Source of the DNA: Clostridia bacterium
Lineage (GTDB): Bacteria; Bacillota; DTU025
Assembly: GCA_034926675.1 (NCBI GenBank)
Contig: JAYFQW010000009.1
Location: 1-64,000 of the forward strand
Direction of reading: 5' to 3'
DNA length: 64,000 nt
Shown here: piece after piece, positions 52,794 through 63,930 of the stretch
Layout: every line of letters begins with the position of its first letter
Position numbering within the stretch: the first letter of the stretch is position 1
Notes under the pieces: generated by a model
Databases searched by the model: none
What the model was told of the DNA's origin: nothing
Seen by the model: only the letters and a program-made list of their open reading frames with translations
Translations under genes and position numbers: made by a program

Positions 52794-53561
52794 ATGGATC
52801 TGATGATTGACGCGGATATTCTGGCCTGCCAGTACGCGTATGCATATGAAGCAACACGGGGCTGGGATGCGGACGGGGCTCTCGATATGGATGGCGCAGT
52901 ATGGGACGACGCGGGCTGGGCCATTTCCGGGTTCGATTCCGCAATCGAGCGAATGCTGAGGGAAACGAGGACGGAGAAGGCGCTCCTATGCTTCACCGGT
53001 CTGGACAATTTCAGGTATTCCATACTGCCCACATACAAGTCAAACCGCCGGGGAAAGCCTAAGCCCGTGTTGCTCGATGCGCTCATCGAGCACTCGCGGC
53101 AGGTGTGGGATTGCAAGGAAGAGGACTGCCTAGAGGCAGACGACGTCATGGGAATCATGGCCACTAGGTCTCCGGGAAGCTATGTCATTGCCACCACCGA
53201 TAAGGACTTAAGGCAGATACCTGGGACTCACTACAACTGGAGAAAGCGACTTGCAGAAGAGGTCACGACGTGTGCAGCCGATTACTGGTTCCATTTTCAG
53301 GTTTTGGCAGGGGATTCGACCGACGGTTACTCTGGATGCCCCGGGGTGGGCGTATGCAAGGCCAAGGCGATCCTCGAGGGAGCAGGAGAGGATCCCTGGG
53401 CTTCGATTGTCACGGCGTTCGAGTCGAAGGGGTTTGCAGAGGAGGACGCGCTGATCCAGGCCAGGGTGGCCCGTATCCTTCGATGCGGTGATTACGACTT
53501 CAGACGGCGCAAACCTATATTGTGGCGGCCAGGCCCAGAAGGCGCCCGACCTGATAGGTGA
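52794..53561 (+). CDS. Phage-type 5'-3' exonuclease (FEN family)
   Basis: 255 aa from ATG 52794, preceded by AGGGGGA. A flap-endonuclease fold with acidic metal ligands: LMIDADILACQYAYAY, FTGLDNFRYSILPTYKSNRR, EEDCLEADDVMG, VIATTDKDLRQIPG and GDSTDGYSGCPGVGVCKAK. The closest relatives I know are T7-gp6-like phage exonucleases, not the PolI-type domain. It converges on and overlaps the feoB 3' end by 47 bp. Probably a stranded phage gene. Confidence 0.85.
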   Translation: MDLMIDADILACQYAYAYEATRGWDADGALDMDGAVWDDAGWAISGFDSAIERMLRETRTEKALLCFTGLDNFRYSILPTYKSNRRGKPKPVLLDALIEHSRQVWDCKEEDCLEADDVMGIMATRSPGSYVIATTDKDLRQIPGTHYNWRKRLAEEVTTCAADYWFHFQVLAGDSTDGYSGCPGVGVCKAKAILEGAGEDPWASIVTAFESKGFAEEDALIQARVARILRCGDYDFRRRKPILWRPGPEGARPDR

Positions 53562-55395
53562 TGACCGCAAGCGTCCATCCAAGCACGAGTGGATATGCCA
53601 CCGCAAAGGCGGTCCACGCCCGCGAGCCGGTCTCGCGCCGGATGGCGGCTATCGTGGCGATGCACGGTACGTATGTCAGCGACATCACCATGAAGGCGTA
53701 GGCCGAAAGGGGCGTCCAGTTGGCCTGGATCGCGCCGGCCACGCCCGTCTCTCCCGTCCCATACAGAACTCCGAGGGTGCCAACTATCAGTTCCTTGGCT
53801 ATAGCTCCGAAGAACAAGGCCGCTGCAGCCTGCCACGTCCCGAAGCCGGCGGGTTTGAATATTGGGGCAATGGCGCTGCCTATCTGTCCTATCAGCGAGT
53901 CTGGGCTGCCCGGGGCGGCGCCCACGGGCAGGTTGGACAACGCCCACACCACGACCACCGCCATTAAGATGACTGTGCCGGCCTTGTGAAGAAACTCCTT
54001 GCCTCTCTCCCACGTCTGCAGCAGAACCCCTGATATCCTGGGCATTCGGTATGGCGGAAGCTCCATCACGAATGTGGACGAGACATCAGGTTTGATGAAG
54101 ACGCTCAACACTCTGGCCACGACCGCGGCCAGCGCCACGCTCAGTGCGTATAGGGAGAAGACTACGAGCCCGCGGCGCTCGGCGAAGAAGACGCCAGCAA
54201 ACAAGACGTATACCGGCAGCCGCGCTGAACACGAGATCAGCGGGTTGACGAGTATCGACACTAGCCTGTCGCGCGGGCTATCGAGGCTGCGCGTTGCCAG
54301 GATGCCGGTGACGTTGCACCCGAAGCCCAAGATCATTGGGATGAAAGCCTTGCCGTGGAGCCCAACGGCGCCCATGAATCTGTCGGAGATGAGAGCGGCT
54401 CGCGCCATGTACCCGACATCTTCGAGCAGCGAAATTGCGAAGAACAGCAGGAATATGGGGGGCGCGAACTCGAACAGCGCCCCTAGGCCCGCGATCACGC
54501 CGTCTGCAACGAAAGCGACCACGATCTTTGGCGCACCAGCCGCCCCCAACGCGCGCGCGGCCCAGGCGCCGAAGGTTCCGATTACGCCTCCAAGCCCGCC
54601 CGCGATGGGCGCACTCAGCGAGAATGTGAACTGGAACATGGCCCACACCACGCCGAAGAAGATGGGGTAGGCAAGCCACGGATTGAGCACTATGCGGTCG
54701 ATCCGTTGAGACGGCGACTCCGCGGCGCGGTCGGGAGCGGTCGTGATGACCGACTGGGCGATTTCGGCTGCCAGCTTGTAGCGGCGCTCAGTGGCCAGGT
54801 CGTGCGACTCGATCGCCGGGCTTGACTCGATAGAATGTTCTGACTCCCGGCCCTGTTTCGGGGAACCGTCTTCCATGCGCCGGGCCGAGACGGCAGCGAA
54901 CGCCGCGTCGAGCAGGTCGTCGATGCCTTTGCCGCGGACCGCCACCGTGGGCACGACCTCGACTCCCAGGGCTTTCGATAACCCTTCTACGTCTATGTTG
55001 AGGCCGAGTGCCTCCGCCTCGTCGAACATGTTGAGTGCCAGCACAAGATGCGTGCCCATCTCGAGCATCTGAATTGTGAGGTAGAGGTTCCTTTCAAGAT
55101 TGGTGGAGTCCACCACGTTGATCACTACGTCGGGCCGTTCACGCATGATGAAGTCGCGCGCGATGGTCTCGTCCAGCGCCTGCGAACCCAAGCTGTAAGT
55201 GCCGGGCAGGTCGACTATGAGCGCGGACACTCCGTGTCGAGTCACGCGCCCTTCTTTCTTCTCGACTGTGACTCCAGGCCAGTTGCCTACGTGCTGGTGG
55301 GCGCCTGTTATGGCGTTGAAAAGGGCAGTCTTGCCCGAGTTGGGGTTGCCTGCGATGGCTATCACAGGCGCCGTGCGCGAAATGGAATCGATCAT
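53515..55395 (-). CDS. feoB: Ferrous iron transport protein B
   Basis: 626 aa from ATG 55395, with GGAGGG upstream. N-terminal G domain: P-loop GNPNSGKTALFNAITG, DLPGTYSL switch and NMFD for G4. A shortened helical spacer (about 160-215) is followed by about 10 membrane helices with the GFGCNVTGILATR and FGAIAKELIVG motifs. It takes up Fe(II). It follows feoA and a DtxR-type regulator in the same direction. Confidence 0.95.
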   Translation of the reverse strand: MIDSISRTAPVIAIAGNPNSGKTALFNAITGAHQHVGNWPGVTVEKKEGRVTRHGVSALIVDLPGTYSLGSQALDETIARDFIMRERPDVVINVVDSTNLERNLYLTIQMLEMGTHLVLALNMFDEAEALGLNIDVEGLSKALGVEVVPTVAVRGKGIDDLLDAAFAAVSARRMEDGSPKQGRESEHSIESSPAIESHDLATERRYKLAAEIAQSVITTAPDRAAESPSQRIDRIVLNPWLAYPIFFGVVWAMFQFTFSLSAPIAGGLGGVIGTFGAWAARALGAAGAPKIVVAFVADGVIAGLGALFEFAPPIFLLFFAISLLEDVGYMARAALISDRFMGAVGLHGKAFIPMILGFGCNVTGILATRSLDSPRDRLVSILVNPLISCSARLPVYVLFAGVFFAERRGLVVFSLYALSVALAAVVARVLSVFIKPDVSSTFVMELPPYRMPRISGVLLQTWERGKEFLHKAGTVILMAVVVVWALSNLPVGAAPGSPDSLIGQIGSAIAPIFKPAGFGTWQAAAALFFGAIAKELIVGTLGVLYGTGETGVAGAIQANWTPLSAYAFMVMSLTYVPCIATIAAIRRETGSRAWTAFAVAYPLVLGWTLAVITYQVGRLLGLAATI

Positions 55396-55521
55396 AATAC
55401 GTTGGCCCTCCAAATGTGATATGTATGCTGCAAGAAATAGTAGACGTAGTCAGTTAGGGCCAACTAACTTTCGGCCCGTAAAAATGGTCCCCCCGTGGGA
55501 CAGCGTCCACCGTTCATGCAT

Positions 55522-55902
55522 TCAGGTGCCGTTGCGTCTGCCGCGCCAGCGACGCACACCTCGCCTTGGGTGTCCTGAGCAGGGACCGCTGGGGGGCAGG
55601 GCGCCAGACTTGCGATGCCTGTGCGGACCCTGGCAGGAAAGAGCGCATGCTGAACCGGGGCAGGGGCTAACAGTGATGCCTGCGGCTTCCGCCCGTCTGA
55701 GTCCGAGACGGCATCCTCGGGCACATATAATGATGGGATCGCCCAGAGGAGCGGCGCCTTCGAGGCGGACTTCGGTGCCGGGCGTCAAGCCCATGTCCAT
55801 AAGCCTGCATTTGAGCGGACCCGGGCAGCCGATGCCGACAATCTTGCCGCGCGCTCCCGGGTCGAGCTCGTCCAGTGATGTTGCCCTTCCACTGTTGTTC
55901 AC
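55522..55902 (-). CDS. feoA: Ferrous iron transport protein A, C-terminally extended
   Basis: 126 aa from GTG 55902 (GGGAGG 10 nt upstream). Residues about 8-80 are the FeoA SH3-like domain (LDPGARGKIVGIGCPGPLKC, LMDMGLTPGTEVRLEGAAPL). The last about 45 residues are Cys/Pro/Arg-rich (PCPGSACALSCQGPH...) and go beyond the normal FeoA length of about 75-85. Another frame (55464-55724) is also open there, so a frameshift near 55680 cannot be excluded. Overlaps the regulator by 4 bp. Confidence 0.85.
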   Translation of the reverse strand: MNNSGRATSLDELDPGARGKIVGIGCPGPLKCRLMDMGLTPGTEVRLEGAAPLGDPIIICARGCRLGLRRAEAAGITVSPCPGSACALSCQGPHRHRKSGALPPSGPCSGHPRRGVRRWRGRRNGT

Positions 55903-56297
55903 CGGTCGGCCTCCCTTTCCATGAAGTCTATCATGCCCGTCATAGTCTCTTTGCTGACTACGTGTTCTATTTGACACGCATCTTCCTCAGCCACCGTCTC
56001 GTCCACGCCCAGTACAGAGATGAGGAAAGATTTGATGGCCCGGTGCCTCTTGCAAACGGCTCGAGCTGCATTTTGCCCGTCCTCTGTGAGGTAGACTGGC
56101 CCGTATTTCTCCCGCATGATCAGGCCATGGTCGACTAGGAGGCCCATTGCCTGGTTGACGCTAGCCTTGGCCACTCCGAGCCTCGCGGCTATATCGGTAG
56201 TGCGCACGCCTTCATCGTCGCCGGCCAGCACCAACACTGCTTCCAAGTAGTCCTCTAGAGAGGGAGATATCTGGGCTCTGGGCTTGCTTGCAACCAA
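55899..56297 (-). CDS. DtxR/MntR family metal-dependent regulator
   Basis: 132 aa from TTG 56297, with GGGGGTAG upstream; an open frame extends to 56606 but that part has no family similarity and crosses the promoter. DNA-binding domain PSLEDYLEAVLVLAGDDEGV with HTH DIAARLGVAKASVNQAMGLL; dimer/metal domain with RHRAIKSFLISVLGV and EEDACQIEHVVSKETM, giving the usual Cys/Glu/His metal ligands. It should repress feoA-feoB when iron or manganese is sufficient. No SH3 domain; FeoA is encoded right after it. Confidence 0.92.
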   Translation of the reverse strand: MVASKPRAQISPSLEDYLEAVLVLAGDDEGVRTTDIAARLGVAKASVNQAMGLLVDHGLIMREKYGPVYLTEDGQNAARAVCKRHRAIKSFLISVLGVDETVAEEDACQIEHVVSKETMTGMIDFMEREADR

Positions 56298-56367
56298 CCC
56301 ACTACCCCCAATTTCCGGCGCCGCCGTGCGGCGCAGAAGTAAGGGATGCCTAACACCTTCTGCCTTT

Positions 56368-56396
56368 AGTCTACGACACGGCGAGTATCGTGTCAA
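56368..56396 (-). promoter_or_regulatory. Promoter of the regulator-feoA-feoB operon with palindromic operator
   Basis: Minus strand TTGACA (56391-56396), 17 bp, TAGACT (56368-56373). The spacer is filled by an inverted repeat GACACG-N8-CGTGTC (56375-56394), which overlaps the -35 element. Such a position is ideal for repression by the DtxR-type protein; autoregulation is inferred. Confidence 0.7.
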
Positions 56397-56580
56397 GATG
56401 CTGTTCAAATCGATAGAATAATCCCATCGTACGGTTAGGAGGAATCCCAGCATGGGCGGATAATGGATGGGGCGAAGGACAGGCTGCTGACCGTGCCCGG
56501 GAGTTGCCGCTGCTTCTTGCATCGACCCAGGGGAGTCGGGGGGCAAGCTTGCAAATGGCCCCCGGAGAGGAGGGTAAGGG

Positions 56581-56676
56581 ATGAGCATTATCAGCTTCTT
56601 CGCCAACGTAACCGCTGGCCGAGGGCTGGGGATGACGATCCCTGCCCAAACGGTGAAGGCGCATGATTTGGACTAG
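56581..56676 (+). CDS. 31-aa small ORF
   Basis: MSIISFFANVTAGRGLGMTI is the N-terminus; total 31 codons. A strong GGAGAGGAGGG lies before ATG. It is followed 10 bp later by the Cys-rich ORF. No family known; could be a peptide or a leader. Confidence 0.4.
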   Translation: MSIISFFANVTAGRGLGMTIPAQTVKAHDLD

Positions 56677-56929: not shown

Positions 56930-57099
56930 CGGTTTTGATTTGACGCAACGAATCGACTTCGACAAGAGTACTGATGACACAAATCGGAACGTTGACATGC
57001 GGAGTCAGTTCTATCATAATCGTTATGGGCATATGATTGATATTCGAAGGGCAAGGAGCAGATCCGGGGAATGGGCTCACCAGAGGATAGGTGATATGG

Positions 57100-57640
57100 A
57101 TGCCGTACATCTTTGGCCCAGTGCCTTGAAGGCGGTTGGGGTTGTCGCTGGAAGTGGACGTAGTACCCCTACAAGGTGTGTTCCTTCAATTGCATATGCT
57201 GCTAGGTTGGCAGGACCACCTGCAGGACTCTGCAACGCCAGGCTTTTGTGGATATCGACGATGTGATCGCCGAGTTGCGAGCAGTCTTGCCTCGGGCTAA
57301 AGCCAACTACACTACCCTGTCGGGATCGGGTGAGCCCACGCTCAGCCTTCACGTAGGCAGACTGATACAGGAGATTAAGAAGCTGACCTCGATACCGGTG
57401 GCAGTTCTGACCAATGGTTCGCTCTTAGGCCGTTCAGATCTCGATCAGGAACTGCTCGGCGCCGACCTCATGATCCCTTCTCTGGACGCAGGCAGTCAAA
57501 AGGTGTTTGAGAGAATAAACCGCCCATGTTTTGAGCTGAGCATAAGCGGCATCATCGATGGACTTGAGCGGTTCTCGATCCGCCGCGAGAACGGGTTGAC
57601 CTACTTCGGATGCGCGCACGATTCTGAACAGGAGTTGATA
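57100..57640 (+). pseudogene. Broken radical SAM protein (COG0731-like)
   Basis: From ATG 57100 the peptide MPYIFGPVP runs into TGA (57127-57129, a Ser codon in relatives) and then RRLGLSLEVDVVP. An extra C in the CCCC run at 57166-57169 shifts frame; with the shift corrected the sequence reads YKVCSFNCICC, the CxxxCxxC iron-sulfur motif, then TAG (57203-57205, normally Gln) and VGRTTCRTLQRQAFVDIDDV. The rest is open (ANYTTLSGSGEPTLSLHVG, PVAVLTNGSLL, VFERINRPCFELSI). The C-terminal third is missing, ending near 57600. Three point lesions in 80 bp: a recent pseudogene. Confidence 0.85.
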
Positions 57641-57642
57641 CC

Positions 57643-58203
57643 ATGCCAAGACCGCCCAAGCTCAGACGTGTAGAGTTCATACCTCAGGTGACCGTGTTCA
57701 AGCCTGCGGGCGTGTCGCTGCGCGACCTGGAAGAGGAAGTGCTCACAGTAGAGGAGCTTGAGGCTATACGCCTCAAGGATCTGGCAGGTCTGGAACAAGA
57801 AGGGTGCGCAGAGCGGATGCAAGTGTCCCGGCCTACGTTTCAGAGAGTACTCTCTTCCGCAAGGGAGAAGGTGGCTCGGGCGCTCGTGGAAGGCAAGGCC
57901 ATTCGTTTCGAGGGCGGAACGTATCGCCTGGCTCTGGGGCAGTTCAGATGCGGGTCGTGCAGCTATGAGTTCCAGGCTCCCTTTGCCGTAGCGCAGAGCG
58001 GGACAGACCCTGCTTGTCCGAATTGCGGCGCCGAACGCGGAAAGCGAATTGGACAGGCGGGACACGGACACGGAGCCGGAAGACCGGGCCCAGGACGCTG
58101 CCGCAGAGGATGCGGAAAGATTCAAAACACAGATCGCGATGCAGATCAGGAGATGAACTCGGAACTGCCGGAAGGACCGCAGACGCCGGAAGCGGGCGAT
58201 TGA
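57643..58203 (+). CDS. DUF134 family protein with zinc-ribbon region
   Basis: 186 aa. Typical DUF134: [40 protein letters not shown] and an HTH ([20 protein letters not shown]), i.e. a sigma-70-region-4-like DNA-binding domain. Residues about 105-130 have CGSCSYEF and CPNCGAE, a zinc ribbon; then a His/Gly-rich stretch [23 protein letters not shown]134 genes regularly precede NifX and Mrp genes in anaerobes and are likely their regulator. AGGAG precedes ATG. Confidence 0.9.
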
Positions 58204-58336
58204 CGGACTGACCGACTCGCGATTTGCTTTCGGTTTGATTGCTTCCGGCCACACCTCATTGCTCACCCATTTTCCTTGGTCAAATGGCATACGAACCACT
58301 GATTTGCACGGAAGGCAGACTTTTCGGCCTTGGTTA

Positions 58337-58366
58337 TTGACATATGCCCATAACCTTGGGTATACT
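58337..58366 (+). promoter_or_regulatory. Promoter of the DUF5320-NifX-MinD operon
   Basis: TTGACA (58337-58342), 18 bp, TATACT (58361-58366), about 43 bp ahead of the DUF5320 start. The sequence around contains several CATATG-type short palindromes. Confidence 0.8.
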
Positions 58367-58408
58367 GATAACGAGCATATGATCATTATAACTAGGGAGG
58401 TATGGGAT

Positions 58409-58834
58409 ATGCCAAGAGGAGACGGAACGGGTCCAGCAGGCTTTGGACCCATGACTGGAAGATCTGCGGGCTATTGTGCAGGGTACGATGCCCCCGGGTT
58501 TGTGGACGCTCCCGGGGCAAGAGGCAGAGCAGGGGCTGGCAGAGGCTACAGGCGGATGTACTACGCCACAGGTTTGCCGGGTTGGATGAGGTATGGCTGC
58601 CGCGGATGGGTTGCTCGTGAAGTCGCGCTCGGATCTGCTCGTCCTGCTGCAGGCTTTCGAGGTGTGCCGTATGAAGGCCGCTACGCGAGCGACGATGCGG
58701 GAATGTCTGAGGAACGTGAGAAGCAGCTGCTGAGCCAGCAGGCGCAGTTCCTCAGGAGCGAACTTGAAGTGGTGGAAAGGCGAATTAGCGACATGGCGAG
58801 CCCGGACCGTGGCTCGACGGAAGGCGGCAAGTAA
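58409..58834 (+). CDS. DUF5320 family protein
   Basis: 141 aa from ATG 58409 (AGGGAGG upstream). N-terminus MPRGDGTGPAGFGPMTGRSA and GYCAGYDAPGF is the signature of these Gly/Met-rich small proteins; the C-terminal half has a coiled coil (EEREKQLLSQQAQFLRSELE). They accompany NifX/MinD genes in anaerobes. Role unknown, possibly a metal or cluster scaffold. Confidence 0.9.
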   Translation: MPRGDGTGPAGFGPMTGRSAGYCAGYDAPGFVDAPGARGRAGAGRGYRRMYYATGLPGWMRYGCRGWVAREVALGSARPAAGFRGVPYEGRYASDDAGMSEEREKQLLSQQAQFLRSELEVVERRISDMASPDRGSTEGGK

Positions 58835-58835
58835 C

Positions 58836-59207
58836 ATGCATATTGCAATAACCGCTCAGGGCGTGGACCTGGATTCGACTATGGACCCGCGTTTCGGGAG
58901 GTGCCGGAATTTCGTCATCGTTGACCTTGAGTCTGACAAGTTCGAGGCGTTTTCGAACGAAAGCATCATGGCGTCTGGAGGCGCGGGCACTCAGAGCGCG
59001 CAGTTCCTGGCCAACAAGGGAGTGGACGCGGTAGTCACCGGCAACATCGGCCCCAACGCCTCACGCGCGTTGGAGGCGGCAAGCATCAAGGTGTACACCA
59101 TGGCCTCAGGCACAGTGCGCGATGCTCTTCAGGCGTACAAGGCAGGCAAGCTCAGCACGGTTTCCGGGGCCACTGTGGACTCGCATCACGGAATGGGAAG
59201 ACGTTAG
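58836..59207 (+). CDS. NifX/dinitrogenase cofactor-domain protein 1
   Basis: 123 aa from ATG 58836. NifX/NafY fold: MHIAITAQGVDLDSTMDPRF, GRCRNFVIVDLESDKFEA and GVDAVVTGNIGPNASRALEA. Relatives bind iron-molybdenum or other Fe-S cofactors. No nif genes in the window, so a general Fe-S handling role is more likely. Starts 2 bp after the DUF5320 stop. Confidence 0.9.
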   Translation: MHIAITAQGVDLDSTMDPRFGRCRNFVIVDLESDKFEAFSNESIMASGGAGTQSAQFLANKGVDAVVTGNIGPNASRALEAASIKVYTMASGTVRDALQAYKAGKLSTVSGATVDSHHGMGRR

Positions 59208-59256
59208 GGCTGTAAGGCAGCGAAACTACCTCAACGATTTGGGAGGTTCGTCACAC

Positions 59257-59676
59257 ATGAAGATCGCGTTGGCAACGGATGGATCAGTGATATCACCGCA
59301 TTTCGGTCATTGCTCCGAGTTCACGGTGGTTACGGTCGAGAACGGCAAAGTCGTGGACACGGCGACCGTTCCTAACCCAGAGCACCAGCCGGGGTTTCTA
59401 CCGGAATACCTATCGAAATTCGGGGTGTCGTGCATAATCGCAGGCGGCATGGGCCCGAGGGCGCAGGAGCTGTTTGCCGCCAAGGGCATTCAGACTGTGG
59501 TGGGCGCTTCAGGGACTGTAACAGAGGTGCTCCGAGACTACCTGGCCGGATCGCTCAAAGTGGGCGAGAGCGCGTGTGACCACATAGATGGGGCCGAAGG
59601 ACACGAGGGTCACGCGTCTTGTGACCATGGCAACCATTCGGACGACCATGGCCATCCCTGTGGGCACGGCAAGTAG
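59257..59676 (+). CDS. NifX/dinitrogenase cofactor-domain protein 2, His-rich tail
   Basis: 139 aa from ATG 59257 (GGGAGG upstream). MKIALATDGSVISPHFGHCS, VSCIIAGGMGPRAQELFAAK. The last about 35 residues hold about ten histidines and two Cys (HGNHSDDHGHPCGHGK), a probable metal-binding tail. Paralogue of the preceding gene. Confidence 0.9.
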   Translation: MKIALATDGSVISPHFGHCSEFTVVTVENGKVVDTATVPNPEHQPGFLPEYLSKFGVSCIIAGGMGPRAQELFAAKGIQTVVGASGTVTEVLRDYLAGSLKVGESACDHIDGAEGHEGHASCDHGNHSDDHGHPCGHGK

Positions 59677-59679
59677 GCT

Positions 59680-60564
59680 ATGATCGTATCAGTGGCCAGC
59701 GGAAAAGGCGGCACAGGCAAGACGACAATCGCGGTCAACCTGGTCCTGGCTCTGGAGGGGACTATGCCCGTGGACTTCCTGGACTGTGATGTCGAGGAGC
59801 CCAATGCGCATCTGTTCCTCCATCCTGTGCTCGAGACCTCTGAGCGAGTCACTCTGCCTGTGCCTGTTGTCGACGAGAACAAGTGCAGCGGGTGCGGTAC
59901 GTGCGCGGAAGTATGCGCGTTTCATGCCATTCTGTCGCTTGGAGGCCGTGCCATAGCATTCCCAGAGTTATGTCATGGCTGCGGGGGGTGTGCGCGCTTC
60001 TGCCCTACGGGCGCAATATCCGAGGTTCCCAGAGAAATCGGAGTGGTGGAGACTGGGAGGGCAGGCGATACAGGGGCGATCAGATTCGTCCAGGGACGAG
60101 TCAACATCGGCACTGCTCTGGCTCCCCCGGTGGTGAAAGCCGTTCGAAGCAAGGCCGGACCAGGCGACAGAGTCGTCATCATCGACTCGCCGCCCGGGAC
60201 GTCCTGCCCGGTCGTAGCCTCGGTGAAAGGCAGCGACTACTGCCTACTCGTTACCGAGCCCACGCCGTTCGGGCTGAACGATCTGGCGCTGGCAGTGGAT
60301 ATGGTGCGGGAACTGGGCGTTCCATTCGGGGTGGCCATCAACCGCGCAGGGCTTGGCGATGACAAGGTCGCTGCTTACTGCAGACAGGAGCATATCCCCG
60401 TGTTGCTTGAGATCCCATTCGACAGGAGATATGCGGCTTCCTACGCTCGCGGCGGACAGCTTGTACGCGACTTCCCTGAGCTGGGCGATTCTCTGAGAGG
60501 CCTCTGGCGGCAGATTCGTGCTGCGGTGGGGCCGTTGCCAGAGGAGGGGGAAATGGCACGATGA
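59680..60564 (+). CDS. MinD/Mrp-type ATPase with ferredoxin insertion 1
   Basis: 294 aa. P-loop ASGKGGTGKTTIAVNLVLAL at the N-terminus; residues about 65-115 are a 2[4Fe-4S] ferredoxin-type insertion (CSGCGTCAEVCAFHA and CHGCGGCARFCPTGA); the ATPase resumes with DSPPGTSCPVVASVKGSDY. Fe-S cluster carrier or donor ATPases of this type occur in pairs in anaerobes. It starts 3 bp past the NifX stop and overlaps its paralogue by 4 bp. Confidence 0.92.
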   Translation: MIVSVASGKGGTGKTTIAVNLVLALEGTMPVDFLDCDVEEPNAHLFLHPVLETSERVTLPVPVVDENKCSGCGTCAEVCAFHAILSLGGRAIAFPELCHGCGGCARFCPTGAISEVPREIGVVETGRAGDTGAIRFVQGRVNIGTALAPPVVKAVRSKAGPGDRVVIIDSPPGTSCPVVASVKGSDYCLLVTEPTPFGLNDLALAVDMVRELGVPFGVAINRAGLGDDKVAAYCRQEHIPVLLEIPFDRRYAASYARGGQLVRDFPELGDSLRGLWRQIRAAVGPLPEEGEMAR

Positions 60565-61619
60565 AGGAACTGCTCGTCATCAGCGGCAAGGGTGGCACGG
60601 GAAAGACCTCTATCGTAGGAGCCTTTGCGGTTCTGGCGGAGAGCAAGGTGCTGGCGGACAGCGATGTGGACGCGGCTGACCTGCACCTTCTGCTCAACCC
60701 GACGGTCAAGACCATCAACGAGTTCCGGGCGTCAAAGCAGGCGGTGCTTGACCCAGCCAAGTGCGCCGGCCAGTGCAGCGCATCTGCCGCCTGCGCCGAG
60801 GTGTGTCGGTTCGGAGCTATCTCCCTGTCCTGTGGGACCGGCGCTGGAACCAACGCCGGCGGCAGCATGTCAGTCTCTGACACCGGCGGTGCTGCTGGCG
60901 CCGGTTTTCCCCACATCGATCCAGTCTCTTGCGAAGGCTGCGGCGTCTGTGCTCGTGCATGTCCTCATGGCGCGATCTCAATGGAGGATGTGGTGTCGGG
61001 GCACTGGTTTGTGTCCGATACAGCCTATGGTCCCATGGTCCACGCCAGGCTCGGAGTGGCCCAGGAGAATTCAGGCAAGCTTGTCACGCAGGTCCGACGT
61101 GAGGCGCGGGCCATTGCGGAGAGGCAGGGGCTGGAGTATGTAATCATCGATGGACCACCCGGCATAGGCTGCCCGGTGATATCGTCAATGTCCGGAGTTG
61201 ACTTGGCCCTCATCGTCACTGAACCCACTGTTTCAGGGACGCACGACATGAGGAGAGTCGTGGAGTTGGCACACTACTTTGGGGTAAGAACGGCAGTCTG
61301 TATCAACAAGTACGACCTTGATGAGGCAAGTGCCGAGCAGATTGAAGAATACTGCCGCAGTGAGAGGATTGAAGTCGCGGGGAGGATCCCATTCGACGAA
61401 GGAGTGGTCGGCGCCTTGGTGAGGGGAGTGCCGATGGTAGCGAATGCCGACAGTTGCCCCGTTTGTGTGGGCGATTCAGTACAAGCATCAGATTCCGCCC
61501 GCCCTCATGGCAAAGCAGCGCTGGCCACACGGGAGCTATGGAGGAGGGTCGCGGTTATCCTGAAGCAAAGCCCAAGCTCCCAGGCGTACGCGAGAGAGGT
61601 AAGCATCCGGGATAGATAG
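60561..61619 (+). CDS. MinD/Mrp-type ATPase with ferredoxin insertion 2
   Basis: 352 aa. P-loop ISGKGGTGKTSIVGAFAVLA; ferredoxin-like clusters CAGQCSASAACAEVCRFGA and CEGCGVCARACPHGA, separated by an unusually long Gly/Ala/Ser-rich spacer (about 35 residues, GTGAGTNAGGSMSVSDTGG) absent from its neighbour; then DGPPGIGCPVISSMSGVD. Likely forms a hetero-pair with the preceding ATPase. The C-terminus (SSQAYAREVSIRDR) lies against the truncated secreted-protein fragment. Confidence 0.92.
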   Translation: MKELLVISGKGGTGKTSIVGAFAVLAESKVLADSDVDAADLHLLLNPTVKTINEFRASKQAVLDPAKCAGQCSASAACAEVCRFGAISLSCGTGAGTNAGGSMSVSDTGGAAGAGFPHIDPVSCEGCGVCARACPHGAISMEDVVSGHWFVSDTAYGPMVHARLGVAQENSGKLVTQVRREARAIAERQGLEYVIIDGPPGIGCPVISSMSGVDLALIVTEPTVSGTHDMRRVVELAHYFGVRTAVCINKYDLDEASAEQIEEYCRSERIEVAGRIPFDEGVVGALVRGVPMVANADSCPVCVGDSVQASDSARPHGKAALATRELWRRVAVILKQSPSSQAYAREVSIRDR

Positions 61620-61634: not shown

Positions 61635-62138
61635 TTGGTGAGTGTGCCTGCGGGAAACAGCTGGGGCAAGACTGGCGTCGAGTCCAAATCGCCGGTGTTT
61701 ATCGTTGATGGTTCGTTTGCGACTCGACCAGGCCTCGTGCTAGTCAAACTAGACCCTGAGCTAACCACCAGTTACGTTGTTGCTCTTATGCCCACCTGGA
61801 ACTATGACCCATGGTTCTCACGCAACGTGTGGGTTGGCGCTAGCGGCGCCACGGACAAGGCCGATGGATACGTCAACCTCATCGATTCGCAAGGCGCTGA
61901 GAGGTATGGAACCGATGGTTACCTTCCCATCAAGCCTACGCATGCGCCTGCGTGGATTGGGTTCAAGGTCTACCCCGGCAGAGTGGAGGTCTGCGTGCCA
62001 GGTATGGATGACCCTGCACCCATGAAGGCCGATTGGATTGGCGAAGGGACGCCAATATTCCTGAGTGTGTTCTCGTCGGCTCCCTACGAGTCGGGACCAA
62101 CGGCTGTGGCCATCGATGAGATCCTCGTGGGACGGTAG
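61635..62138 (+). pseudogene. 5'-truncated paralogue of the secreted beta-rich protein
   Basis: About 167 codons, opening near TTG 61635 or GTG 61638. VSVPAGNSWGKTGVESKSPV, NVWVGASGATDKADGYVNL and HAPAWIGFKVYPGRVEVCV align through the whole length with residues about 105-270 of the protein encoded at 48410-49222. Signal peptide and N-domain are absent; an in-frame TAG closes the frame just upstream, 16 bp from the end of the ATPase gene. A cut duplicate, probably not secreted. Confidence 0.72.
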
Positions 62139-62457: not shown

Positions 62458-62754
62458 ATGCTCGACCCGAAGATCGCGGCACGCGTGACTGTTTTTAAGG
62501 CCCTTGCCCACGAAACACGGGTAAGGATCGTGGAGATGCTAGCTGAGGAAGGCGAGAAGTGCGTGTGTGAGATTGTGGAGCGCTTGGACTTTGATCAATC
62601 AACCATCTCAAGGCATCTCAGCGTCCTGAGGAGTGCTGGAATCGTAGCCTCCAGGAAGGAAGGGCTCAACGTCTGGTACCGCCTCGAGACCCCCTGCGTC
62701 TACCAGTTCATGAGATGCATAGACGGGGTCAGCACGTGCAGCCTGAAGGAGTGA
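62458..62754 (+). CDS. ArsR/SmtB family regulator
   Basis: 98 aa. Winged helix with FKALAHETRVRIVEMLAEEG, the metal-site motif EKCVCEIVERL (ELCVC-type box of arsenic sensors) and recognition helix DQSTISRHLSVLRSAGIV. It probably senses arsenite or another thiophilic metal(loid) and represses the permease gene. Extra Cys near the end (CVYQFMRC, TCSLKE). Confidence 0.93.
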   Translation: MLDPKIAARVTVFKALAHETRVRIVEMLAEEGEKCVCEIVERLDFDQSTISRHLSVLRSAGIVASRKEGLNVWYRLETPCVYQFMRCIDGVSTCSLKE

Positions 62755-62760
62755 ATCTGG

Positions 62761-63930
62761 TTGAAAGAGCTCAAGGCGTTTCTGCTCATTCTTGGAGTGT
62801 TCATTATCGTGTATCTCGCGCCTCTTGGAAACCCTCGTGTTCAGGCCGCTGTGCTTGAGGCCCTGTATATGCTGCAGGAATACGCTCGTCAGCATGTGCT
62901 GTTCTGCCTCGTGCCGGCTTTTTTCATAGCCGGCGCCATGCAGAACTTCATATCCGCCAAGTCAGTCATGCGATACCTCGGCAAGGGAGCAAAGCAGTGG
63001 CTTGCGTACGCCGTGGCATCTGTCTCCGGAGCGATCCTTGCGGTATGCTCCTGCACGGTGCTGCCCCTGTTCATGGGCATATACAAGAAGGGGGCGGGCC
63101 TTGGGCCGGCGACCGCATTTCTATACTCTGGCCCTGCCATAAATGTGCTTGCCATAATCCTCACAGCCAGGGTGCTAGGCTGGCAGATCGGGGTGGCAAG
63201 GGCGGTGGGGGCCATAGTCTTCTCGGTTGTTATCGGCCTGCTGATTGCGGCGATCTTCAGAGGAGAGGAATCCGAGAGGCAGAAGGGTTTCGCTTCCTCT
63301 TCCGTGGAGGCGGGCGGAAGAACACTGGGTCAGACGGTCGTGTACTTCGCTACCCTCGTGGGAATCCTGGTCTTCGCAGCTTGGGGCAGACCCTCGGAAG
63401 AGGTCGGGTTCTTCTACACAGTCTGGCGGATCAAGTGGCGCCTAGCCTTCACTCTACTCGGGTTCCTTGCCTACCAGGCCACAGCCTGGTTCAACCGCGA
63501 TGAACTGGTGACTTGGAAGGACTCCACCTGGAGCTTCGCAAAGCAAGTGCTGCCTCTGCTTTTCGGAGGAGTGCTCCTTGCAGGTCTGCTAACGGGCAGG
63601 CCCGGCATTGATGGAGGCCTGATCCCGTCCGCCTGGGTGGCTAGGGTAGTAGGGGGGAACTCTCTCCTCGCCAACTTCACCGCCTCGGTGGCCGGAGCGT
63701 TCATGTATTTCGCAACCCTCACCGAGATACCGATCATCCAGGGGCTAATAGGATCCGGAATGGGCCAGGGGCCAGCACTTGCACTGCTCCTTGCGGGGCC
63801 AGCCTTGAGCCTTCCCAGCATGCTTGTGATCAACAGCATCCTAGGACCCAAGAAGACTATCACCTACGTTGCGCTCGTAGTGGTCATGGCCACACTTAGC
63901 GGGTGGGTATTCGGAGCAGTAATGGCCTAG
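62761..63930 (+). CDS. Permease of the ArsP/SO_0444 family
   Basis: 389 aa. About ten membrane helices; signature segments AFFIAGAMQNFISAKSVMRY, GAILAVCSCTVLPLFMGIYK (with the CSCTVLP cysteine pair), and GPAINVLAIILTARVLGW. Such permeases export arsenic compounds or other thiol-reactive ions. TTG start with GGAGTGA upstream, 6 bp after the ArsR stop. Confidence 0.9.
   Translation: MKELKAFLLILGVFIIVYLAPLGNPRVQAAVLEALYMLQEYARQHVLFCLVPAFFIAGAMQNFISAKSVMRYLGKGAKQWLAYAVASVSGAILAVCSCTVLPLFMGIYKKGAGLGPATAFLYSGPAINVLAIILTARVLGWQIGVARAVGAIVFSVVIGLLIAAIFRGEESERQKGFASSSVEAGGRTLGQTVVYFATLVGILVFAAWGRPSEEVGFFYTVWRIKWRLAFTLLGFLAYQATAWFNRDELVTWKDSTWSFAKQVLPLLFGGVLLAGLLTGRPGIDGGLIPSAWVARVVGGNSLLANFTASVAGAFMYFATLTEIPIIQGLIGSGMGQGPALALLLAGPALSLPSMLVINSILGPKKTITYVALVVVMATLSGWVFGAVMA

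Follow-up and report, generated by a model that had tools for sequence, protein, structure and literature searches.

What a compact group of six genes in a probably anaerobic bacterium makes, and what decides when it is expressed, is the question raised by the 64,000-nucleotide stretch of DNA analysed here (positions 1 to 64,000 of contig JAYFQW010000009.1 of a Clostridia bacterium; hereafter the window). The genes lie on the + strand at 57643-61619 and encode a DUF134 protein, a DUF5320 protein, two NifX-type proteins (NifX1 and NifX2) and two MinD-type ATPases (MinD1 and MinD2); their placement was checked and is supported by Pfam. The genome (G000) is a draft of 3.38 Mb in 90 contigs, 97% complete. 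The assembly of iron-sulfur (Fe-S) and heterometal cofactors in anaerobes is poorly understood, and ORP-type genes have so far had no clear function. An earlier note on this DNA had listed the six tightly spaced genes, all of which are present, and had proposed that their products carry out ATP-driven assembly or delivery of an Fe-S or metal cofactor. We keep that proposal as the best reading of the cluster, since NifX2 matches the C-terminal domain of MrpORP and since loci with Mrp, NifU-type and MrpORP genes carry its operator or one almost identical to it. That control element, which the note missed, is the informative part of the locus. We hold with moderate confidence that the cluster is an ORP-like module for a metal-sulfur cofactor, with DUF134 as its dedicated regulator; this account builds on the gene content, a conserved site, its two-site geometry and the association of that site, across many genomes, with DUF134 and with genes of Fe-S assembly, all of them observed.

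A putative palindromic operator at the promoter of the cluster

The operator, a 20-bp palindrome (TTATGnnCATATGnnCATAA), came to light through a 14-bp stretch that recurs exactly, in inverted orientation, at 57022 and 58341. One copy, O1 (TTATTGACATATGCCCATAA, 58334-58353, + strand), extends over the -35 box in the promoter of DUF5320; by direct reading, this promoter consists of TTGACA (58337-58342) and TATACT (58361-58366) on the + strand, separated by a spacer of 18. O1 is an exact match, unique as such in its own genome, and is exact in the related loci L004 and L005 too. A second copy, O2 (TAACGAGCATATGATCATTA, 58369-58388, no strand assigned), lies 35 bp downstream of O1 and has 3 mismatches. 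The DUF5320 gene follows at 58409-58834; its ATG at 58409 was checked, and the product of 141 amino acids (MPRGDGTGP...) matches PF17253 with 72.4 bits (cut-off 27). A third copy, operator A (TTATGGGCATATGATTGATA, 57023-57042, no strand assigned), stands upstream of a radical S-adenosylmethionine (SAM) gene remnant and of DUF134. It has 3 mismatches to TTATNNNCATATGNNNATAA, and a very similar site is found upstream of DUF134 in L065 and L050.

At no more than one mismatch, TTATNNNCATATGNNNATAA occurs 15 times in 30 DUF134 loci of relatives, whereas 60 composition-matched palindromic controls averaged 0.08 occurrences and never exceeded 1. A strict form that embeds the -35 box, TTATTGACATATGNNCANAA, has 72 exact matches, spread over 57 of the 299 genomes sampled from the window's phylum, and its reversed control has 0. 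Seventy of the 72 sites were analysed in context; one near a contig end and one duplicate were left out, and two near-identical sites in L169, a local duplication, were both counted. TTGACA is followed by a -10-like hexamer with a spacer of 17 at 43 of the 70 sites and with a spacer of 18 at 21, and a second operator core stands at +33 to +36 in 40, compared with 0-1 of 70 for each of six control windows.

Genes behind the operator

Within 900 bp of the site, the leading gene with a family label was DUF5320 in 32 cases, NifX in 11 and DUF134 in 7, that is, one of these three at 50 of the 70 sites; Mrp came first at 8, Fur at 5 and a metallo-beta-lactamase (MBL) fold at 2, three labels with some circularity, since their hidden Markov models drew in part on these very loci. 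Pfam confirmed Fur in L166 and L178, and NCBIfam confirmed Mrp in L105; at all five sites where Fur comes first, a cluster gene or an Mrp gene follows within 900 bp of the site. When twenty proteins from genes at or after the sites were run against Pfam, Fur, NifU_N, the metallo-beta-lactamase fold, DUF1847, CoA_binding_2, MOSC and hemerythrin were confirmed; others of the twenty have no evident Fe-S link (an ATP-binding cassette (ABC) transporter, UbiA, a GntR regulator, alkaline phosphatase, an ARMT1-like protein and DUF1893).

Elsewhere, an operator of identical or almost identical sequence accompanies genes for Mrp, for a NifU-type scaffold and for full MrpORP. In L146 a single run behind the site reads NifX, NifX, MinD1, MinD2, Fur, a 74-amino-acid open reading frame (ORF), NifU_N, Mrp and MBL. 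MrpORP exceeds the NCBIfam whole-protein cut-off of 450 bits in L103 (507 bits) and L116 (451.2 bits), both of which hold sites with one mismatch; in L116 the gene lies 3.7 kb downstream of the site.

Two variants of this arrangement were also seen. In L105:5600-9276 and L107:764-4351 the operator is followed by an Mrp-type gene and then by an NMT1-type ABC transporter (Pfam on L105 only). In four Stahlbacteria loci (L013:85, L014:4897, L016:4778 and L019:4620) a related site, 2-3 mismatches away and near TTATGCCCATATTCACATATAA, precedes MinD1, and it recurs after NifX2 where the locus extends that far; the genomes of these four loci gave no DUF134 match.

DUF134 as the candidate reader of the operator

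DUF134, also named UPF0251, is encoded by the first gene of the cluster (57643-58203, 186 amino acids; PF02001, 81.6 bits, cut-off 27) and combines a helix-turn-helix with a C-terminal CxxC...CxxC. The helix-turn-helix is weakly sigma-factor-like (Sigma70_ECF, 21.4 bits, cut-off 21.1), and the Cys residues C55, C103, C106, C125 and C128 are conserved in 46-53 of 58 sequences from the window's phylum. The family occurs in 198 of the 299 genomes, in 193 of them over the curated cut-off, and its distribution follows that of the operator: 53 of the 57 motif genomes carry DUF134, compared with 145 of the 242 others (p 2.5e-7, one-sided, genome relatedness uncorrected). Among genomes without the ATPase, the motif is present in 15 of the 66 that have DUF134 and in 0 of the 88 that do not. 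On these grounds DUF134 is quite likely the reader of the operator, its binding being predicted from co-occurrence and position, and it would most likely act as a repressor. Titles and abstract openings held nothing relevant on DUF134, DUF5320 or UPF0251, subscription literature being outside the scope of that search, nor on the operator letters or phrases naming the gene set.

The genome encodes a second DUF134 on contig C46 (L039:4437-6421), with a weaker operator-like site upstream. Behind that DUF134 gene come an Mrp gene, which matches the N-terminal part of MrpORP (313 bits), and a NifX gene, which matches the C-terminal part (80 bits); the two are adjacent, and each stays under the whole-protein cut-off. 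Contig C48 has a third, weak DUF134 match (27.9 bits), which was not recovered with the DUF134 of the window as query.

The same operator in Omnitrophota

Nineteen genomes were reached via L006-L024, 18 of them labelled outside Bacillota and that of L021 within. They contain 16 DUF134 genes over the cut-off; for six of these, the region of about 70 bp upstream includes a site with no more than one mismatch, against an expectation of 0.001. All six lie in four Omnitrophota genomes (G301, assigned by taxonomy, G304, G312 and G314), and two of the six sites are exact and palindromic in their inner letters as well. The other 10 DUF134 genes have no upstream site with one mismatch or fewer; in G306 (contig C86) two two-mismatch sites lie upstream.

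Eight Omnitrophota loci were read. In four (L221, L222, L225 and L226) DUF134 and its site head a run of ArsP type: L222 encodes an ArsP_1 permease, an ArsE-type thioredoxin, ArsF and ArsG (NCBIfam and Pfam), L225 has the same order by eye, L221 encodes ArsP_1 and ACR3, and L226 encodes two ArsP_1 permeases and a thioredoxin-like ORF. In the remaining four, no arsenic genes and no NifX/MinD genes adjoin the site; of these loci, L224 ends within DUF134 and L227 begins at the site. The DUF134 proteins of three of the four arsenic-type loci (not L226) carry an N-terminal C-x5-C-x4-C that is absent from the three DUF134 proteins of the other loci read, which suggests that Cys sites have been swapped to change the signal. 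A role in sensing metals or thiols would fit both Cys patterns, the N-terminal one in Omnitrophota and the C55 plus C-terminal one in the window's phylum.

Proteins of the proposed cofactor module

Both NifX proteins pass the gathering cut-off of the Nitro_FeMo-Co domain (PF02579, 26.3 bits): NifX1 (58836-59207, 123 amino acids) with 94.4 bits and NifX2 (59257-59676) with 79.2. NifX2 aligns with the C-terminal domain of MrpORP (NF041136) at 107.5 bits, under the 450-bit cut-off for the whole protein, and matches the solved ORP protein 2wfb weakly (E 4e-4); proteins resembling MrpORP's two domains are encoded by neighbouring genes on contig C46. Compared with MrpORP, MinD1 scores only 42.0 bits and MinD2 only 39.8, and the ATPases of the window carry inserted ferredoxin motifs.

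These ATPases are encoded at 59680-60564 (MinD1, 294 amino acids) and 60561-61619 (MinD2, 352 amino acids); the start of MinD2 overlaps the end of MinD1 by 4 nt, with starts taken from the sequence. Pfam gives ParA/NUBPL at 49.4 and 38.8 bits (cut-off 27.1) and Fer4 in each, in agreement with the ferredoxin-type clusters that the earlier note had ascribed to both. They have in common a deviant Walker A and a conserved Cys in PPG[TI][SG]C; the former reads SGKGGTGK, invariantly, and conforms to the GKGGxGK of Mrp/NBP35. MinD1 has two canonical ferredoxin Cys quartets. MinD2, aligned with 21 relatives, also has two, the first with the unusual spacing C-x3-C-x5-C-x3-C (residues C68, C72, C78 and C82), a feature that had gone unremarked. 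The spacing is also odd in L004, and L005 and the other relatives read C-x2-C-x2-C-x3-C in the alignment; all four Cys are kept, three being invariant and C72 present in at least 90%.

Likeness to ApbC/Mrp/NBP35 carriers and to NifH extends to the P-loop fold and the deviant Walker A. Unlike Mrp-type carriers, 20 MinD2 sequences show no cluster-bridging CxxC outside the quartets, where only C204 (invariant) and C265 (at least 90%) are conserved. By eye, C204 fits the position of NifH Cys132, and no partner for Cys97 is seen in that comparison. An AlphaFold model of MinD2 (20 sequences, predicted local distance difference test (pLDDT) 78.5) superposes best on ApbC (8zkc; Z 24.2, root-mean-square deviation (rmsd) 2.9 over 225 residues), then on MinD (1g3q; Z 23.8, rmsd 2.6, 216 residues) and on the Fe protein of vanadium nitrogenase (6q93; Z 23.0, rmsd 2.7, 222 residues), a ranking of near ties for a predicted structure. 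At E <= 1e-40 the MinD2 profile finds 145 of the 299 genomes, 131 of them with at least two matches, as expected for an ATPase pair. The nearest named relatives by MinD2, at 72-73% identity, come from metagenome-assembled 'Bacillota' and 'Firmicutes' genomes, and on this basis we assign the window to Bacillota in a broad sense.

The Gly/Ser spacer of MinD2 and the His-rich tail of NifX2 (also rich in Cys), which the earlier note had called distinctive, are both present and are local embellishments. The spacer (low-complexity, Gly/Ser/Ala, about residues 88-115, after the first quartet) is predicted to be disordered, with pLDDT below 50 at residues 91-114; long inserts at this position occur only in the window, in its two nearest relatives (L004 and L005) and in L019, whose insert is unrelated in sequence. 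The tail is highly variable among relatives. As functional hallmarks we rejected both.

Neighbouring genes

Between operator A and DUF134 lies the radical SAM remnant (57100-57673, approximate boundaries, + strand). It matches PF04055 with 25.2 bits, below the cut-off of 29.5, and three-frame translation reveals in-frame stops and a change of reading frame; long, open homologues (268-332 amino acids) adjoin the operator in L120, L148, L150, L174, L178 and L191. Upstream of the cluster and divergent from it, FeoB, FeoA and an MntR/DtxR-type regulator are encoded at 53515-56606; a FeoB homologue was present in 10 of 96 scanned loci (L004 and L106 being one locus). Downstream, a 167-amino-acid ORF at 61635-62138 had no match in Pfam or NCBIfam. 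An ArsR regulator and an ArsP_1/SaoE-like permease (62458-63930, + strand) begin an arsenic-type operon that we do not claim as part of the cluster; the run continues in L041:2-1659 with an ArsE-like thioredoxin, a ferredoxin and ACR3, and the arsenic genes of the window have no operator match at 3 mismatches or fewer. In L147 the strict motif stands about 1.1 kb before an ArsP-like ORF.

Discussion

The earlier note's remark that this group of genes has no assigned product overlooks the ORP complex of Desulfovibrio vulgaris, which comprises Orp5, Orp8, Orp9/MrpORP and two proteins, Orp3 and Orp4, that each have two [4Fe-4S] motifs; Orp9/MrpORP can transfer Fe-S clusters to ORP proteins in vitro (PMC6345978). 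The resemblance lies in paired proteins with two 4Fe-4S motifs each, a NifX-like protein and occurrence in anaerobes. For MinD1 and MinD2 the likeness to Orp3/Orp4 is drawn from described features rather than from sequence comparison; for the NifX/ORP-type protein Orp8, PF02579 is found twice, with the weak 2wfb match. ORP genes form two divergent sigma54 operons with the activator DVU2106 and IHF (PMC3897727). The cluster of the window, in contrast, is one operon running in a single direction from a -35/-10-like promoter (58337-58366), with DUF134 and DUF5320 and without an Mrp or MrpORP gene. We therefore file it as ORP-like and not as an ORP complex.

Metal- or Fe-S-responsive repressors include IscR, Fur and ArsR. 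The logic proposed for DUF134 is alike, with a Cys-bearing regulator, an operator over the promoter and control of itself and its targets, but DUF134 matches none of their families. In the mechanism that we propose, DUF134 would bind TTATGnnCATATGnnCATAA, probably as a dimer. With O1 lying across the -35 box and O2 placed 35 bp further, beyond the -10 element, bound DUF134 would block RNA polymerase. The signal may be Fe-S or metal status, perhaps sensed via the conserved Cys, upon which the DUF5320-NifX1-NifX2-MinD1-MinD2 operon would be transcribed. MinD1 and MinD2 might then work as a pair powered by nucleotides, with electrons or clusters coming from their ferredoxin domains, to assemble or hand over a metal-sulfur cofactor for which the NifX proteins would be the carriers. 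Taken jointly, the data make it moderately probable that the DUF134 proteins are a hitherto unrecognised family of transcription regulators that sense thiols or metals, bear a sigma-factor-like helix-turn-helix and have retained a single ancient operator in at least two phyla, controlling an ORP-like regulon for Fe-S or metal cofactors (DUF5320, NifX, paired MinD ATPases, Mrp/MrpORP, NifU-type and Fur) in the window's phylum and arsenic-efflux operons in Omnitrophota.

Several observations pull the other way. Four motif genomes (G001, G056, G257 and G293) lack a DUF134 match, and consequently motif and DUF134 are unassociated among ATPase-bearing genomes (38 of 132 with DUF134, 4 of 13 without); all four are drafts, 90-93% complete, and genus mates of G001 and G257 carry DUF134. 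Conversely, 145 of the 198 DUF134 genomes lack the strict motif. No labelled gene follows 5 of the 70 sites (L147, L158, L160, L172 and L182), and five first-gene labels are weak (18-24 bits). The genome of the window has 24 sites with 3 mismatches or fewer and its control also 24, so that its regulon is not interpretable beyond contigs C9 and C46. None of the eight Omnitrophota loci read has a NifX/MinD cluster adjoining DUF134. The structure model of DUF134 is poor (three sequences, pLDDT 46) and not usable for a fold search. Finally, the Fur genes behind some sites could themselves encode the binder.

This last point leads to an alternative in which the palindrome is read by a protein other than DUF134, such as a member of the Fur family that several of the operons encode, and DUF134 is a mere member of the regulon. 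In its favour, Fur is the first gene at five sites and present in 20 of 96 loci scanned, and four motif genomes lack a DUF134 match. The co-occurrence of motif and DUF134 in all but those four motif genomes and the position of the palindrome directly before DUF134 genes in another phylum make this rather unlikely, and the operator is presumably unlike a Fur box. Somewhat less unlikely is that the cluster serves detoxification or repair, with DUF134 sensing thiophilic metals or metalloids or damaged Fe-S clusters and the module rebuilding the clusters. In four Omnitrophota loci, DUF134 and the operator stand at the head of ArsP-type operons, three of which also encode ArsE, ArsF, ArsG or ACR3, and an ArsR-ArsP-ArsE-ferredoxin-ACR3 run follows the cluster in the window; the arsenic genes of the window, however, have their own ArsR and no operator match within 3 mismatches, and an ArsP homologue occurs in only 1 of 96 loci scanned.

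Turning from the signal to the product, a role in positioning the division septum, with the MinD-type ATPases as spatial regulators, was first proposed for the ORP complex, whose proteins have been given a putative part in cell division (PMC6345978 and PMC3897727). The ATPase fold does match MinD, but ApbC and the nitrogenase Fe protein match equally closely, each ATPase carries two Cys quartets, and the operator links the cluster to genes for Mrp, NifU-type and MrpORP proteins; we judge septum placement improbable. Maturation of a nitrogenase-like cofactor in the sense of FeMo-co is more doubtful still, and we give it very little credence. NifX domains are present, and radical SAM genes beside the operator in relatives are reminiscent of the pairing of NifB with NifX. 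However, the radical SAM gene has decayed in the window, and PF00148 was not found in the genome at E <= 1e-10. Profiling against metalloenzymes, which the earlier note had suggested and which here covered the nitrogenase-like PF00148 superfamily only, gave no association across the 299 genomes (a match in 28 of 145 genomes with the ATPase and in 41 of 154 without it, p 0.17); a product for nitrogenase was accordingly set aside as disfavoured.

For the ORP-like cofactor module under DUF134, the shared operator provides an unbiased list of probably co-regulated genes, and the genes so linked favour Fe-S assembly over cell division. If the account is true, a protein family carried by 198 of the 299 sampled genomes of the phylum would gain its first function.

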